The notes under the pieces: model-generated
The model's database searches: none
What the model was told of the DNA's origin: nothing
Seen by the model: the letters and a program-made list of their open reading frames with translations, nothing else
Assembly (NCBI RefSeq): GCF_024704725.1
Contig: NZ_JALIQS010000002.1
Location: 930,001 to 994,000 of the forward strand
Source of the DNA: Shinella sp. CPCC 101442
Lineage (GTDB): Bacteria; Pseudomonadota; Alphaproteobacteria; Rhizobiales; Rhizobiaceae
Length of the DNA: 64,000 bases
Reading direction: 5' to 3'
Part shown: in pieces, positions 15,485 through 20,102 of the stretch
How the letters are laid out: each line of letters begins with the position of its first letter
Numbering within the stretch: position 1 is the stretch's first letter
Translations under genes and position numbers: made by a program

Positions 15485-16558
15485 CTATTCCAAAGCGACC
15501 GTCTTGATCACGGCGTGGACGGGCAACCCCGGCGCCAGGCCGAGCCGCTCGACCGACAGCGCGGTGATTCGGGCGCGCACATGATCGCCGCCGCAGGCGA
15601 TACGCACGCTCGCCATGCCCTCCCCGTCCGGATCGATGCTTTCGACCGCGCCCTCAAGAATGTTGAGGGCGCTGAGCCCTTCCGGGCGGACCGTCGCCAC
15701 CATGACGTCGCGGGCGGGGATGCGCAGGCGCACCATCTCGCCGGGCGAAACCGCAGCCCCCGGCACCAGGATGATCGCGCCGCCGTCGAGCCTGATGGTG
15801 GCAAGGCCGCGTGCGGCGTCGCGGGTCTCGACATGGCCCGACAGAACGCTACCCGCCTCGCGGCGGTCGGCGGCAGACGCCAGGCGGGGGCCGCCGAGCA
15901 CATCCGAGACGGGGCCAGCGGCCTCGACGCGGCCGCCTGCCATCAGCACGACCTTGTCGGCAAGACGCGCGACCTCGGCGATGGAATGGCTGACATAGAC
16001 GATGGGAATGCCGACCTCGTCGCGCAGGCGTTCGAGATAGGGAAGGATTTCCGCCTTGCGCTCCTCGTCGAGGGCCGCGAGCGGTTCGTCCATCAGCAGC
16101 AGACGCGGAGATGCGAGCAGTGCACGGCCGATGGCGACGCGCTGTTTTTCGCCGCCGGAGAGGTGTGTCGGCTGGCGGTCGAGCAGGTCGCCGATGCCAA
16201 GCAGGTCGATGATGCGATCGGGGTTTTCCGCCCGCGCGCCCTTCGGTGAAAACCAGCGGCCGTAGTGAAGGTTCTGGCGGACCGTCAGATGCGGGAAAAG
16301 GCGCGCCTCCTGGAAGACATAACCGAAGCGGCGGCGGTGCGGCGGGGTGAGGAGGCGCCGGCTGGTGTCGACCAGCATGTCGTCACCAAGCTGGATGCGG
16401 CCTTCCACCGGGCGCGTCAGGCCGGCGATGATGCGGATGAGCGACGTCTTGCCGGAACCGGAACGGCCAAACAGCGCCGTCACACCGCCATCGGAGGTGA
16501 AGGCGGCCTCCAGCGAAAAATCGCCGAACCGGTGGCGGGCTTCGACGATCAGGCTCAT
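15485..16558 (-). CDS. modC: Molybdate ABC transporter ATP-binding protein
   Basis: 357 residues. ATPase domain with Walker A GRSGSGKT (about 31-38), Q-loop [10 protein letters not shown], signature LSGGEKQR, Walker [13 protein letters not shown] and the switch His in VSHS; residues about 285-357 form the TOBE/Mop-like domain ([29 protein letters not shown]) that binds oxyanion in ModC. It energises uptake of molybdate for the Mo cofactor. The ATG overlaps the modB stop by four bases (ATGA), so it is coupled to modB. It lies last in modABC. Confidence 0.93.
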
Positions 16559-17256
16559 TCGAGATGCACCTTGCGGCCGATGCGCTGGGCGAGAACTTCC
16601 GAGGCGAGCAGCGCCGCCATGGAAATGGCAATGGCGACGAGGGTGAGGCGAAGCGCGCCGGCATCGCCACCCGGCACCTGGGTGAAGGTATAGATGGCGG
16701 CCGACAGCGTCTGCGTCTCGCCGGGAATGTTGGAGACGAAGGTGATGGTGGCGCCGAATTCGCCCATGGCTTTGGCGAAGGCGAGGATCATGCCGGCGAG
16801 CACGCCGGGGAAAATCAGCGGCAGGGTGACGGTGAGGAAGACCCAGAAGGGGCTTGCTCCGAGCGTGCCGGCCGCCTCCTCCAGCTTGCGGTCCACGGCC
16901 TCGATGGAGAGGCGGATGGAACGCACCATCAGCGGAAAGCCCATGACGCCGCAGGCAAGCGCCGCCCCCGTCCAGCGGAAGGACAGCACGATGCCGAACC
17001 ATTCGTCGAGCACAGAGCCGATGGCGCCGCGCCGGCCGAACAGGATGAGCAGAAGGAAACCGGTGACGACGGGCGGCAGGATAAGCGGCAGATGAACCAC
17101 GCCATTGAGGAGCGACTTGCCCCAGAAGCGGCCCCGCGCAAGCGCAAGAGCCACGAGAATGCCGAGCGGCAGGCTGACGAGCACCGCCACGGACGAAACC
17201 CTGAGGCTCAACCGGATCGCCGTCCATTCCTCATCGCTGAGCACTAGCCAGTCCAC
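16555..17256 (-). CDS. modB: Molybdate ABC transporter permease
   Basis: 233 residues with about five membrane helices and the permease EAA loop [20 protein letters not shown] (near residue 140) that docks on ModC. The GTG start at 17256 is preferred: GAGGAA lies six bases upstream and the protein then begins [14 protein letters not shown], the usual ModB N-terminus. A TTG at 17277 would add seven residues but has no ribosome site. A strong hairpin separates it from modA, so its expression is probably lower than that of the binding protein. Confidence 0.92.
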
Positions 17257-17277
17257 GTGCAATTCCTCGACATGCAA

Positions 17278-17306
17278 ACAGCCCCGGGTTTAGCGGCCGG
17301 GGCTGT
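17278..17306 (-). terminator. Intercistronic hairpin between modA and modB
   Basis: ACAGCCCCGG and CCGGGGCTGT form a perfect 10-bp stem with a 9-nt loop, 14 bases after the modA stop. No T run follows on the modA coding strand, so it more likely blocks 3' exonucleases or only partly ends transcription, raising modA over modBC mRNA. Confidence 0.75.
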
Positions 17307-17319
17307 CGTGAGGCTCGTG

Positions 17320-18093
17320 TTACTTCAGGATGGTGAAACCCTGCTCCGTGAAGAAGGGGGCGGCCTTGTCGGACTTCAGGAAGTCGAGATAGGCGGCAGC
17401 GGCGGCACTCTTCGATTCCGAGAGGATGGCGACCGGGTAGATGATCGGTGGGTGGCTGTCTTCCGGGAAGGTGCCGACGACGGCAACGCCCGGATCGGCA
17501 GCGGCATCCGTCTGGTAGACGATGCCATAGGGCGCTTCGCCGCGCGAGACCAGCGCAAGCGCTGCGCGCACGCTTTCCGCACCGGCAACCTTGCCTTCGA
17601 CACTGGACCAGACGCCCAGCTTTTCGAGCGCCGCCTTGCCGTATTTGCCGGCCGGCACGCTATCGACAGCGCCCATGGCGAGCTTGCCGTCGCCGACCAG
17701 GCCAGAGAGATCGAAGCCGTCCTTGATCTCGATCGTCGAGGCCTTGTCCTTCGGCGCAACGAGCACGATGCGGTTGCCGAGCAGGTTGACGCGGGTGTCG
17801 TCCTTGATCAGCTTCTTTTCAGCAACGTAGTCCATCCAGGCGAGGTCCGCCGAGATGAAGAGATCGGCGGGCGCTGCGGCCTCGATCTGCTTGGCGAGCG
17901 CCGAGCTTGCCGCATAGGAGACCGTCGTCTCGTTGCCGGTTTCCGTCTGCCAGGCGGCGTTGGCGGCATCCAGCGCATTCTTCAGGCTTGCGGCGGCAAA
18001 GACGGTGACCTTTTCGGCGGCCGCGGCCGGCAAAGCGAGCGGCAGGGCCGCGAAGGCGGCGACGACAAGTTTCAGCAGCAGACGGCGGTTCAT
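17320..18093 (-). CDS. modA: Molybdate ABC transporter substrate-binding protein
   Basis: 257 residues: Sec signal (MNRRLLLKLVVAAFAALPLA, cleaved after PAAAA), then the ModA motifs FAAASLKNALDA, SYAASSALAKQIEAAAPADL, FISADLAWMDY and VSRGEAPYGIVYQTDAA, which surround the bound oxyanion. Periplasmic receptor for molybdate/tungstate feeding ModBC. GGGAGAACAGGA precedes the start. The promoter region carries a Mo-box dyad 74 bases upstream, so it should be repressed when Mo is plentiful. Confidence 0.95.
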   Translation of the reverse strand: MNRRLLLKLVVAAFAALPLALPAAAAEKVTVFAAASLKNALDAANAAWQTETGNETTVSYAASSALAKQIEAAAPADLFISADLAWMDYVAEKKLIKDDTRVNLLGNRIVLVAPKDKASTIEIKDGFDLSGLVGDGKLAMGAVDSVPAGKYGKAALEKLGVWSSVEGKVAGAESVRAALALVSRGEAPYGIVYQTDAAADPGVAVVGTFPEDSHPPIIYPVAILSESKSAAAAAYLDFLKSDKAAPFFTEQGFTILK

Positions 18094-18192: not shown

Positions 18193-18311
18193 AACAGACT
18201 GCGGCGGGACGCGGCTGATCACGGCCGGAAGAAGCAATGCGGTTTCACCGGCGATTCGGTGAATGGAAGCGAGCCGAGTGTTTCTGATTTGGGAAAGCGG
18301 GGTCCAGAAAT

Positions 18312-18466
18312 GGAAAAGCCTGCCGCGGGAGGAGGTGCGGCAGGCTTTCCGATAGAACCGAATGGCGACTGGGAGGAGGAGTGCCGCCATTCCCGCAGTC
18401 GGCCCTGGGAGGAGGAGTGGGCCTTCTGCACAATCGAAGCTTCGTGGGAGGAGGTACGTTGCTTCG
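18312..18466 (-). ncRNA. Array of four CCUCCUCCC-loop hairpins (CcsR/cuckoo-type small RNAs)
   Basis: On the minus strand four consecutive stem-loops each expose CCTCCTCCC in the loop. The loop motifs are at 18446-18454, 18407-18415, 18371-18379 and 18327-18335. The stems differ completely: CGAAGC..CGT / ACG..GCTTCG; GCAG..GGCCC / GGGCC..CTGC; GAATGGCG-ACT / AGT..CGCCATTC; AGCCTGCCGC / GCGGCAGGCT. Stem divergence with loop identity shows compensatory pairing, so the structure is selected. CCUCCUCCC is an anti-Shine-Dalgarno. The array lies downstream of a DUF1127 gene on the same strand, exactly the arrangement of Rhodobacter CcsR RNAs and the wider cuckoo RNA family, which are stress-induced riboregulators. 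Whether there are four RNAs of one hairpin or two of two hairpins is not clear. Confidence 0.85.
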
Positions 18467-18597
18467 ATAAATATGACTATATGCGATTCCTGGTCATTTC
18501 ATAGGCATTGTTTTGCAAAGCAGCTATGCGTCATGCGCGTATCGAATATCTCAACTGCCCGAAGGAACTCCAGACCCAGCCAATCTCTTCGCACATG

Positions 18598-18626
18598 CAA
18601 AAACGCCCGCCATAAGGCGGGCGTCT
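18598..18626 (-). terminator. Rho-independent terminator after DUF1127 gene
   Basis: Stem ACGCCCGCC / GGCGGGCGT with a 4-nt loop and TTTTT on the minus strand, 31 bases past the DUF1127 stop. Read-through would enter the CCUCCUCCC hairpin array; related arrays are processed from the DUF1127 transcript, but a separate promoter in 18470-18590 is also possible. Confidence 0.85.
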
Positions 18627-18656
18627 TCGAAATTCTGCTGCGGGGCAGCGCGTCGA

Positions 18657-18803
18657 TCAGAAGCCGACGGCAGCGCGGGCGACAGTCTTGATTTCCGAAC
18701 GTTCGATGCCGAGGTCGCGCAGTTCACGCGCGGTCATGCGGTCGAGTTCGTTGACGGTCTGACGATACTTGCGCCAATTGTTGAAGGAACGTGCCATGTT
18801 CAT
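18657..18803 (-). CDS. DUF1127 (YjiS-like) small protein
   Basis: 48 residues: MNMARSFNNWRKYRQTVNEL then DRMTARELRDLGIERSEIKT and a short tail. This is the Arg-rich DUF1127 domain (R-x-L-x-x-L-x-x-R-x-L-x-D-I/L-G-I). In Rhodobacter a DUF1127 protein is an RNA-binding protein that influences maturation of the small RNAs encoded next to it. ATG at 18803 chosen because AGGGG lies six bases upstream; a second ATG follows two codons later. The linked hairpin array downstream strongly supports the functional pairing. Confidence 0.9.
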   Translation of the reverse strand: MNMARSFNNWRKYRQTVNELDRMTARELRDLGIERSEIKTVARAAVGF

Positions 18804-18914
18804 GATGATCCCCTTTCAGGAGGCTCTCTGTTCGGCACCTTTCCGTGGCGCCGCGTCTTTCGATGACCGTTTATAGCGTTATGCTGCAGTGCAGAACAGC
18901 GCTCAGATAGCAGA

Positions 18915-18941
18915 ACACCCATGCGGCTTGCGCATGGGTGT
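18915..18941 (-). terminator. Terminator-like hairpin after the class I/II aminotransferase
   Basis: ACACCCATGCG-GCTTG-CGCATGGGTGT, an 11-bp stem 25 bases past the aminotransferase stop. The T run after it on the minus strand is short, so termination may be partial. Confidence 0.6.
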
Positions 18942-18965
18942 CGTAAGCATCCATTAAGGATCCAT

Positions 18966-20102
18966 TCAGGCTGCGCGGGAGGCCTGCTCCTTGCGCAGGA
19001 AGGCGGAGATCCGCTTCAGCCCCTCCTCCAGGACCTCCTCCCCATTGGTATAGCCGATGCGCAGATGCCCCTCCATGTCCATCGCGCTGCCCGGCGTCAG
19101 CATGACGCCGGTCGCGTCCAGAAGCTTCGTGCAAAAGGCTTCCGAACTCATCGGCAGGTCGTACTTCAGAAGAGCCGTCGTGCCGGATTTCGGCTTCACC
19201 CAGGAAATCAGCGGCTCGCCCTCCACCCATTCGGCCAGGATGGCAAGATTGGTTCGGGTGATCGCATGGCTGCGGGCGAGGATCTTGTCGCGGTTTTCGA
19301 GCGCAATGGCGGCGAAATGGTCATCCAGCATGCCGACGCTGATCGTGTTGTAGTCGCGGTGGATGGAAACGGCATGCAACAGGTCCTTCGGCCCGACAAT
19401 CCAGCCGAGGCGCAGGCCGGCGAGCGAATAGGTCTTCGACATGCTGCCGGTCGAAATGCCCTTCTCGTAGAGATCGGCGATCGAGGCGGTCATGCCGTTG
19501 CCCGTCTGATCCGTGCCGCGATAGACCTCGTCGCAGAGGATCCAGGCGCCGGCGGCGCGGGCGATTTCGACGACTTCGAGCAGGAAATCGCGGTCCATCA
19601 GCGAGCCAGTCGGGTTGTTCGGGTTGTTGAGGCAGATGAGCTTCGTGCCCGGCGTGGCGAGCCGGCGAAGCTCTTCGAGATCCGGCAGGAAGCCGTGCTC
19701 GGCCGTCAGCTTCAGGATCTGCACGTCGGCGCCATAACTTTCGGGGATGGAATAGTGCTGCTGGTAGGTCGGCAGGACCGAGATGACGCGGTCGCCCGGC
19801 TCCACCAGCGTCTCGTGCACCAGCGCATTGGCGCCGATCGCGCCGTGCGTGACAACGACGTTTTCCAGCGCCTGCTTCTCGTACAGACCGGCGATCAGCT
19901 TGCGCAGCCGCTCGCTGCCCTCGATCGCCCCATAGGTCAGCTTCATCGGCAGGAGTTCGGAGAGGATGGTCTCCTTCTTGCCGGCCATGTCGAGCAGCTC
20001 TTCCACCGTCAGCGATTCCACACAGGTTTCAGCAAGGTTCAGCTCGCAATGGTTCTCGTAGCGGTTCATCCAGATCTCGACGCCGAAATCGCGTATCTTC
20101 AT
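18966..20102 (-). CDS. PLP aminotransferase, class I/II (capreomycidine-synthase-like)
   Basis: 378 residues of fold type I. The PLP Lys lies in GSMSKTYSLAGLRLGW; CLNNPNNPTGSLMD and ILCDEVYRG are the Asn and Asp contacts. The N-terminus MKIRDFGVEIWMNRYENHCE resembles aminotransferase homologs annotated as capreomycidine synthase, but similar rhizobial proteins are probably amino acid transaminases; substrate unknown. It is divergent from an XRE-cupin regulator with 64 bases between starts, the second such pair in this window. A small ACTCC-type ribosome site (AGGAGCC) precedes the start. Confidence 0.85.
   Translation of the reverse strand: MKIRDFGVEIWMNRYENHCELNLAETCVESLTVEELLDMAGKKETILSELLPMKLTYGAIEGSERLRKLIAGLYEKQALENVVVTHGAIGANALVHETLVEPGDRVISVLPTYQQHYSIPESYGADVQILKLTAEHGFLPDLEELRRLATPGTKLICLNNPNNPTGSLMDRDFLLEVVEIARAAGAWILCDEVYRGTDQTGNGMTASIADLYEKGISTGSMSKTYSLAGLRLGWIVGPKDLLHAVSIHRDYNTISVGMLDDHFAAIALENRDKILARSHAITRTNLAILAEWVEGEPLISWVKPKSGTTALLKYDLPMSSEAFCTKLLDATGVMLTPGSAMDMEGHLRIGYTNGEEVLEEGLKRISAFLRKEQASRAA

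Follow-up and report, generated by a model that had tools for sequence, protein, structure and literature searches.

A four-hairpin array downstream of a DUF1127 gene

In the window (the whole 64-kb stretch of DNA that was analysed, 930001-994000 of contig C2 in a 6.1-Mb genome), a DUF1127 gene on the minus strand is followed by an intrinsic-terminator-like stem and by a four-hairpin array that spans 18468-18313 on the same strand. Every loop of the array reads CCUCCUCCC. The features are as follows.

18657..18803, minus: DUF1127 gene of 48 aa (Pfam PF06568, 59.6 bits, E 2.5e-16)
18599..18624, minus: intrinsic-terminator-like stem with its T run, downstream of the DUF1127 gene (sequence and terminator scan)
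18311..18468, minus: predicted sRNA of ~158 nt with four hairpins, the counterpart of SmelA099 (from the SmelA099 alignment)
18433..18468, minus: hairpin 1, loop 18454-18446 (fold with the loop held open; beyond the Rfam match)
18394..18430, minus: hairpin 2, loop 18415-18407 (fold with the loop held open)
18360..18392, minus: hairpin 3, loop 18379-18371 (fold with the loop held open)
18313..18350, minus: hairpin 4, loop 18335-18327, doubling as a terminator-like 3′ end (sequence and fold)
18311..18435, minus: Rfam RF02344 ar14 match, hairpins 2-4 (103.6 bits, cut-off 58.8)

The minus strand carries the motif CCTCCTCCC at 18446-18454, 18407-18415, 18371-18379 and 18327-18335, four copies within 128 bases, and a fifth copy lies on the plus strand within an aminotransferase gene (19034-19042). 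Five matches were thus found in the window against 0.69 expected, and we rejected a chance origin of the loop copies because none of 100 shuffles reached five. Folding the hairpins with the loop held open, we find 10-14 predicted pairs in each, with every minus-strand CCTCCTCCC in a loop. The stems are mutually unrelated: when arms were exchanged within an array, the mean energy over 70 unique four-loop arrays changed from -17.8 to -5.1 kcal/mol. Motif positions, folds and arm swaps bear out the preliminary description of four minus-strand hairpins with unrelated stems and a common loop. The position that it gave to the array, downstream of a DUF1127 gene and its terminator, is likewise upheld by the PF06568 match and by the stem and T run found at 18624-18599. 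The terminator scan places the stem core at 18619-18604, with a chance expectation of 0.8 such sites in the 800 bases scanned.

The array belongs to a known small-RNA family

RF02344 ar14 comprises the anti-Shine-Dalgarno sRNAs of the NfeR1/cuckoo type. The covariance search returned the RF02344 match over hairpins 2-4 listed above, which lies over the Rfam curated cut-off. The ar14/cuckoo hallmark is also present, with CCUCCUCCC in the loop of each hairpin and variable stems maintained by pairing. Membership of the anti-Shine-Dalgarno (ar14/cuckoo) family, as first proposed for this array, is supported by the RF02344 match and by a homologue in S. meliloti, SmelA099.

SmelA099 is listed on pSymA at 1328175-1328334, minus strand, 160 nt (PMC2873474; also PMC7143759). 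According to PMC3927594, SmelA075 and SmelA099 have three and four CCUCCUCCC hairpins, respectively, and a single family with a varying number of modules is suggested. For SmelA075, which has three hairpins, both shorter forms and an increase upon a shift to 40 °C are reported (PMC2873474). The 160 nt of SmelA099 align with the window across the full array, from one base before the hairpin-1 stem, and the two share TATAGTCA as well as GCGCATG, GCAT, GCTG and TTGC upstream. Since the listed 5′ end of SmelA099 aligns at hairpin 1, we predict the start in the window at ~18468. We also consider hairpin 1 a part of the array, and rejected it as a separate element, because it forms part of SmelA099 and every Shinella locus keeps its loop intact. 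The count of four hairpins, as in SmelA099, fits the wider family with variable modules rather than the strict three-hairpin wording of ar14. Judged by its sequence, the array is a further copy of a described sRNA family whose four-hairpin form was already known.

Searching relatives, we found ar14 above the cut-off in 26 of 41 genomes. The window genome carries two further ar14 genes above the cut-off, in tandem on contig 7 (56500-59700, locus L047) and upstream of two same-strand DUF1127 genes, an order reversed with respect to the window locus.

The array is conserved and its stems change in pairs

All 20 other Shinella genomes searched (L048-L066, L094) carry the four-loop array with a DUF1127 gene upstream, so that the two adjoin in 21/21 Shinella genomes with the window included; the DUF1127 neighbour of the preliminary description is constant across the genus. 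A 178-base stretch containing the array is letter-identical to its counterpart in S. curvata C3. Within the bacterial family, at least one array of at least three loops was present in 181 of 247 sampled genomes and in 80 of 109 genera, the 247 genomes being "drawn evenly from a larger group"; the backward-pattern control gave 0 throughout.

With the loop held open, all 280 hairpins of the 70 unique four-loop arrays pair with at least 8 bp. Exchanging arms between arrays weakened the mean energy of hairpin 1 from -14.3 to -11.1, of hairpin 2 from -15.7 to -7.7, of hairpin 3 from -15.4 to -9.4 and of hairpin 4 from -25.6 to -21.5 kcal/mol. L149, whose array is at a contig edge, was excluded from this analysis. 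The share of paired cells in hairpins 1-4 was 0.86, 0.73, 0.92 and 0.97, against shuffle maxima of 0.79, 0.60, 0.80 and 0.90. Pairs were counted in loop-anchored columns because alignment A1 misaligns hairpin 2 between genera. Counted in this way, pairs with a double change numbered 11/11, 11/11, 8/10 and 12/14 in hairpins 1-4, compared with shuffled means of 5.3, 10.8, 6.2 and 2.8 (maxima 9, 11, 9 and 7), and this count was not above the shuffles for hairpins 2 and 3. On both measures, therefore, paired change is clear in hairpins 1 and 4, and in hairpins 2 and 3 it appears through paired cells and arm exchange only. The proposal that the stems are kept by compensatory change is supported by arm swaps and pair counts, most clearly for hairpins 1 and 4.

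The arm-swap, pair and box statistics are uncorrected for shared ancestry. Stem 1 is biased to constancy in 53 of the loci because these were selected by a fixed hairpin-1 stem. The loops were fixed by the search pattern everywhere except in hairpin 1 of Shinella.

The array and the DUF1127 gene carry the same promoter box

The box of VtlR/LsrB is described as GCAT-N3-TG-N3-T (PMC7486931), and it is placed at -61 to -49 in PabcR1 (PMC8844928). LsrB is reported to activate NfeR1 via a motif at -72 to -57 (PMC10746234). We find such a box ahead of both the array and the DUF1127 gene.

18916..18940, minus: palindrome CACCCATGCG-CAAGC-CGCATGGGTG upstream of the DUF1127 gene (sequence)
18924-18912, minus: LsrB/VtlR-type box GCATGGGTGTTCT of the DUF1127 gene, inside the palindrome (21/21 Shinella loci)
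18871..18876, minus: -10-like CTATAA of the DUF1127 gene, putative promoter (TAT 49 nt after the box start)
18517..18529, minus: LsrB/VtlR-type box GCATAGCTGCTTT of the putative array promoter (at -61 to -49 relative to the predicted start)
18476..18481, minus: -10-like TATAGT of the array (shared with SmelA099)

The array box at 18529-18517 is thus the published box at the published distance, with the same placement as in PabcR1. The TAT of the array starts 48 nt after the box start, and that of the DUF1127 gene 49 nt. Across the 70 four-loop arrays, the box lies at -63..-60 in 60 (shuffles gave at most 1 of 69 unique upstreams) and a TAT is in the -10 zone of 63. It is present in 30 of the 34 DUF1127-linked arrays and in 30 of the 36 others (33 without DUF1127 and 3 with too little upstream sequence); the ten arrays without it are L053, L087, L088, L113, L142, L144, L191, L194, L197 and L212. 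Among 90 unique 200-nt DUF1127 upstreams, 54 carry the box (shuffles at most 3), followed by a TAT 48-49 nt on in 48 of the 54. Within Shinella, the box was found in 20/21 array promoters and 21/21 neighbouring DUF1127 promoters, and a stricter box-plus-TAT pattern in 20/21 arrays and 17/21 DUF1127 genes. An E. coli-type scan called no sigma-70 promoter in 18200-19000, and the 64-kb window shows no enrichment of the box by itself (11 found vs 7.6 expected).

Scanning the 6.1-Mb genome with GCATRGSTGNNNTN{34,37}TAT, we obtained seven rows representing six distinct sites, compared with one row for the backward control. Of the six, one belongs to the window array and two belong to DUF1127 genes, namely that of the window and the one next to the ar14 pair on contig 7. 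Another stands ahead of a 50-aa protein that matches DUF3563 in Pfam (28.2 bits against a cut-off of 26.9), and the remaining two fall in long open frames. The last three gave no Rfam match at E 0.1. Summed over the 21 Shinella genomes, the pattern gave 124 rows vs 9 backward. As two of its matches were already known when the pattern was written, fairer evidence comes from the third site and from the other genomes. The DUF3563 site (L234, G000:C2:428623-428674, minus) has the box with array-type spacing, and similar sequences occur in many other Shinella genomes.

The genome encodes an LsrB homologue

The window genome has three ar15/AbcR genes. Two of these form a tandem next to a LysR gene (L232:513-1406; Pfam HTH_1, LysR_substrate) and to a frame that is ArsR-like by eye. 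The best solved-structure match of the LysR protein is 9HH1 (604.6 bits over 298 residues), a structure deposited by the authors of an A. tumefaciens LsrB study (PMC11975290). The order of tandem AbcR, LysR and ArsR-like genes is that described for vtlR in A. tumefaciens (PMC7486931). The genome thus encodes an lsrB homologue.

VtlR is reported to control abcR2 and three DUF1127 genes in Brucella (PMC12595884), and abcR1, atu1667 and vrsA in A. tumefaciens (PMC7486931). For S. meliloti, PMC7486931 has abcR outside LsrB control in the conditions used, whereas PMC8844928 ties AbcR1 to LsrB; as these two reports disagree on abcR, the LsrB regulon appears to differ or to be disputed.

Operon, protein-binding array or leader

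The loop motif of the Rhodobacter CcsR RNAs is the same as that of the window array. Together with the gene order, this motif agrees with the description of ccaF1-CcsR1-4, and a DUF1127 gene lies directly upstream of the array on the same strand in 21/21 Shinella loci, the window included. One might thus expect a CcsR/CIN1-type operon, in which a single transcript from the DUF1127 promoter runs through the array and is cut by RNase E, aided by the DUF1127 protein, into several short sRNAs. In Rhodobacter, ccaF1 and CcsR1-4 are reported to form one precursor that is driven by RpoHI/RpoHII and matured by RNase E (PMC10253847; PMC8307010), and the association of DUF1127 genes with such arrays is described as common in alphaproteobacteria (PMC10253847). 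Within 700 nt upstream, a DUF1127 gene precedes 34 of the 70 four-loop arrays (33 lack one and 3 have too little upstream sequence, leaving 67 that can be judged), and 21 of these 34 come from Shinella or a Shinella-like metagenome bin. Against a common transcript, however, a terminator stem separates gene and array in 21/21 Shinella loci (14 by the strict pattern and 7 by eye, the latter with altered stems and a T run), DUF1127 is absent upstream in 33/67 arrays, and the window array has its own box and -10-like site ahead of hairpin 1. SmelA099, moreover, is listed as its own 160-nt RNA whose 5′ end lies at hairpin 1, and a 3.7-kb stretch examined around it yielded no DUF1127 gene. The CcsR-like operon of the preliminary description is hence a poor fit; the terminator, the DUF1127-free arrays and the listed 5′ end of SmelA099 weaken default read-through, and we regard such an operon as unlikely.

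Identical loops on unrelated stems would also suit repeated protein sites, perhaps for the DUF1127 protein, with the RNA acting mainly as a sponge or scaffold, and the Rhodobacter DUF1127 protein CcaF1 is indeed reported to bind RNA (PMC10253847, PMC12501420). This reading seems quite improbable to us, as the loop letters are those of an anti-Shine-Dalgarno, NfeR1 loops are reported to pair with mRNA (PMC10746234), and other DUF1127 proteins are described as working through proteins, e.g. PhoR (PMC12501420). A transporter gene on the same strand, ~220 nt away, raised the question of whether the array is a cis-acting leader of the downstream transporter genes. Hairpin 4 is terminator-like, a substrate-binding gene lies downstream in only 9/20 other Shinella loci (within the stretches fetched) and no convincing one was found near SmelA099. 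We rejected the leader because the transporter gene is present in so few of those loci, and consider it very improbable.

The frames after the array, at 16383-18093 of the window, are those of an ABC transporter (solute-binding, permease and ATPase; molybdate-type by eye). AT-rich stretches before the first of them may be its own control site. Repeated elements were also seen elsewhere. In a genome from another family of the order (L105, G031:C130:30400-34100), four short DUF1127 genes alternate with two-hairpin elements whose loops contain CCTCCTCC and CTCCTCCC or close variants of these, and a TGCACTTTATGCAATGCTGTGCTGCAA-like stretch stands ahead of at least one of the genes. Tandem three-loop arrays occur at G211:C1:878340-879319 (seven rows ~150 nt apart) and at G191:C1:3405235-3406130 (five rows, mostly 162 nt apart).

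Candidate target sites

In the window genome, GGGAGGAGG, the perfect complement of the loop, lies 3-10 bases before an ATG at 18 sites vs 3 for the backward control. The 17 sites that were located (all except the L227 site) include seven open frames of at least 114 aa. A Pfam scan covered six of the seven (all but L223, 117 aa) and identified an AraC-type helix-turn-helix protein, a flavin oxidoreductase, a substrate-binding protein, an ornithine cyclodeaminase-like protein, PhyH and a kynureninase C-terminal piece. Some of the starts are probably internal. A minority of the 18 sites begin convincing genes, which is too thin to name targets.

Proposed mechanism

We favour, with good confidence, the explanation that the array encodes one four-hairpin sRNA of the ar14/cuckoo type, which would have its own promoter, be co-regulated with the DUF1127 gene by LsrB and block translation. 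What we observe in its support is the anatomy of the array, the family match, the conservation, the paired changes, the shared box and spacing, and the lsrB homologue. The minus strand from 18468 to ~18311 would give one small regulatory RNA of ~158 nt, each loop of which would expose the anti-Shine-Dalgarno CCUCCUCCC. Most likely, this RNA pairs with the ribosome-binding sites, rich in purines, of several mRNAs and would thereby block initiation of translation. The loops may be redundant, as the three of NfeR1 reportedly are; NfeR1 is described as repressing ntrB and two transporter mRNAs via redundant loops, independently of Hfq (PMC10746234), and its regulation and loop redundancy are treated in PMC10746234 and PMC7143759.

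Transcription of the array would start from its own promoter instead of running on from the DUF1127 gene. The common box at the same distance argues that the two are co-regulated rather than co-transcribed, and the probable activator of the two genes is LsrB/VtlR, a LysR regulator that would presumably bind these boxes. What was less expected, the array and the DUF1127 gene look like two separately started genes under one regulator. A stress response of the array is suggested by its relatives and by the LsrB-type box. Overall, the locus probably holds a member of a known sRNA family in an LsrB regulon shared with DUF1127 genes, a link to which the box and its spacing point.

More tentatively, and with some doubt, we suggest that short DUF1127 genes and cuckoo/ar14 sRNAs recur together in Rhizobiaceae because both are outputs of a single LysR switch (LsrB/VtlR), from separate promoters with a common geometry, and not because they form an operon. 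The DUF1127 protein might then be a standing partner of these Hfq-independent RNAs, whether adjacent or not; a chaperone for NfeR1, if any, is left open in the available text of PMC10746234. If true, the shared-box reading would account for the joint occurrence of DUF1127 genes and these RNAs in rhizobia. It would also join the work on NfeR1/cuckoo RNAs with that on VtlR and DUF1127 proteins, and make an action of the DUF1127 protein on these RNAs testable. The link of VtlR to DUF1127 genes (Brucella, and atu1667 of A. tumefaciens) and that of LsrB to NfeR1 are each in print (PMC12595884, PMC7486931, PMC10746234). In our partial coverage of the literature, NfeR1 and DUF1127 never appeared together, and cuckoo RNA and DUF1127 appeared without LsrB/VtlR; the joint picture may be printed elsewhere.

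Comparison with known systems

Like the window locus, the CIN1 locus of Rhodobacter (CcsR1-4/CcaF1) has a DUF1127 gene upstream of its sRNAs (PMC10253847). The CIN1 precursor depends on RpoHI/RpoHII and is cut by RNase E, whereas in the window a terminator intervenes and the array has a promoter-like site of its own.

SmelA099 (smrA6, on pSymA of S. meliloti) is similar to the window array in its four CCUCCUCCC hairpins and aligns with it as a whole unit, although the stems of hairpins 2 and 3 have a different sequence. NfeR1 (Smr14C2, the ar14 founder) resembles the array in its loops, in a terminator-like last hairpin and in an LsrB-type site at a similar distance. It has three hairpins compared with four here, and it additionally has an NtrC site.

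Regulation by LsrB/VtlR is shown in other organisms (PMC7486931, PMC12595884, PMC10746234), and at the window it is suggested by the box sequence. Consistent with a place in the LsrB/VtlR regulon, which includes the AbcR sRNAs, atu1667, vrsA and the Brucella DUF1127 genes, GCAT-N3-TG-N3-T stands before both the DUF1127 gene and the array.
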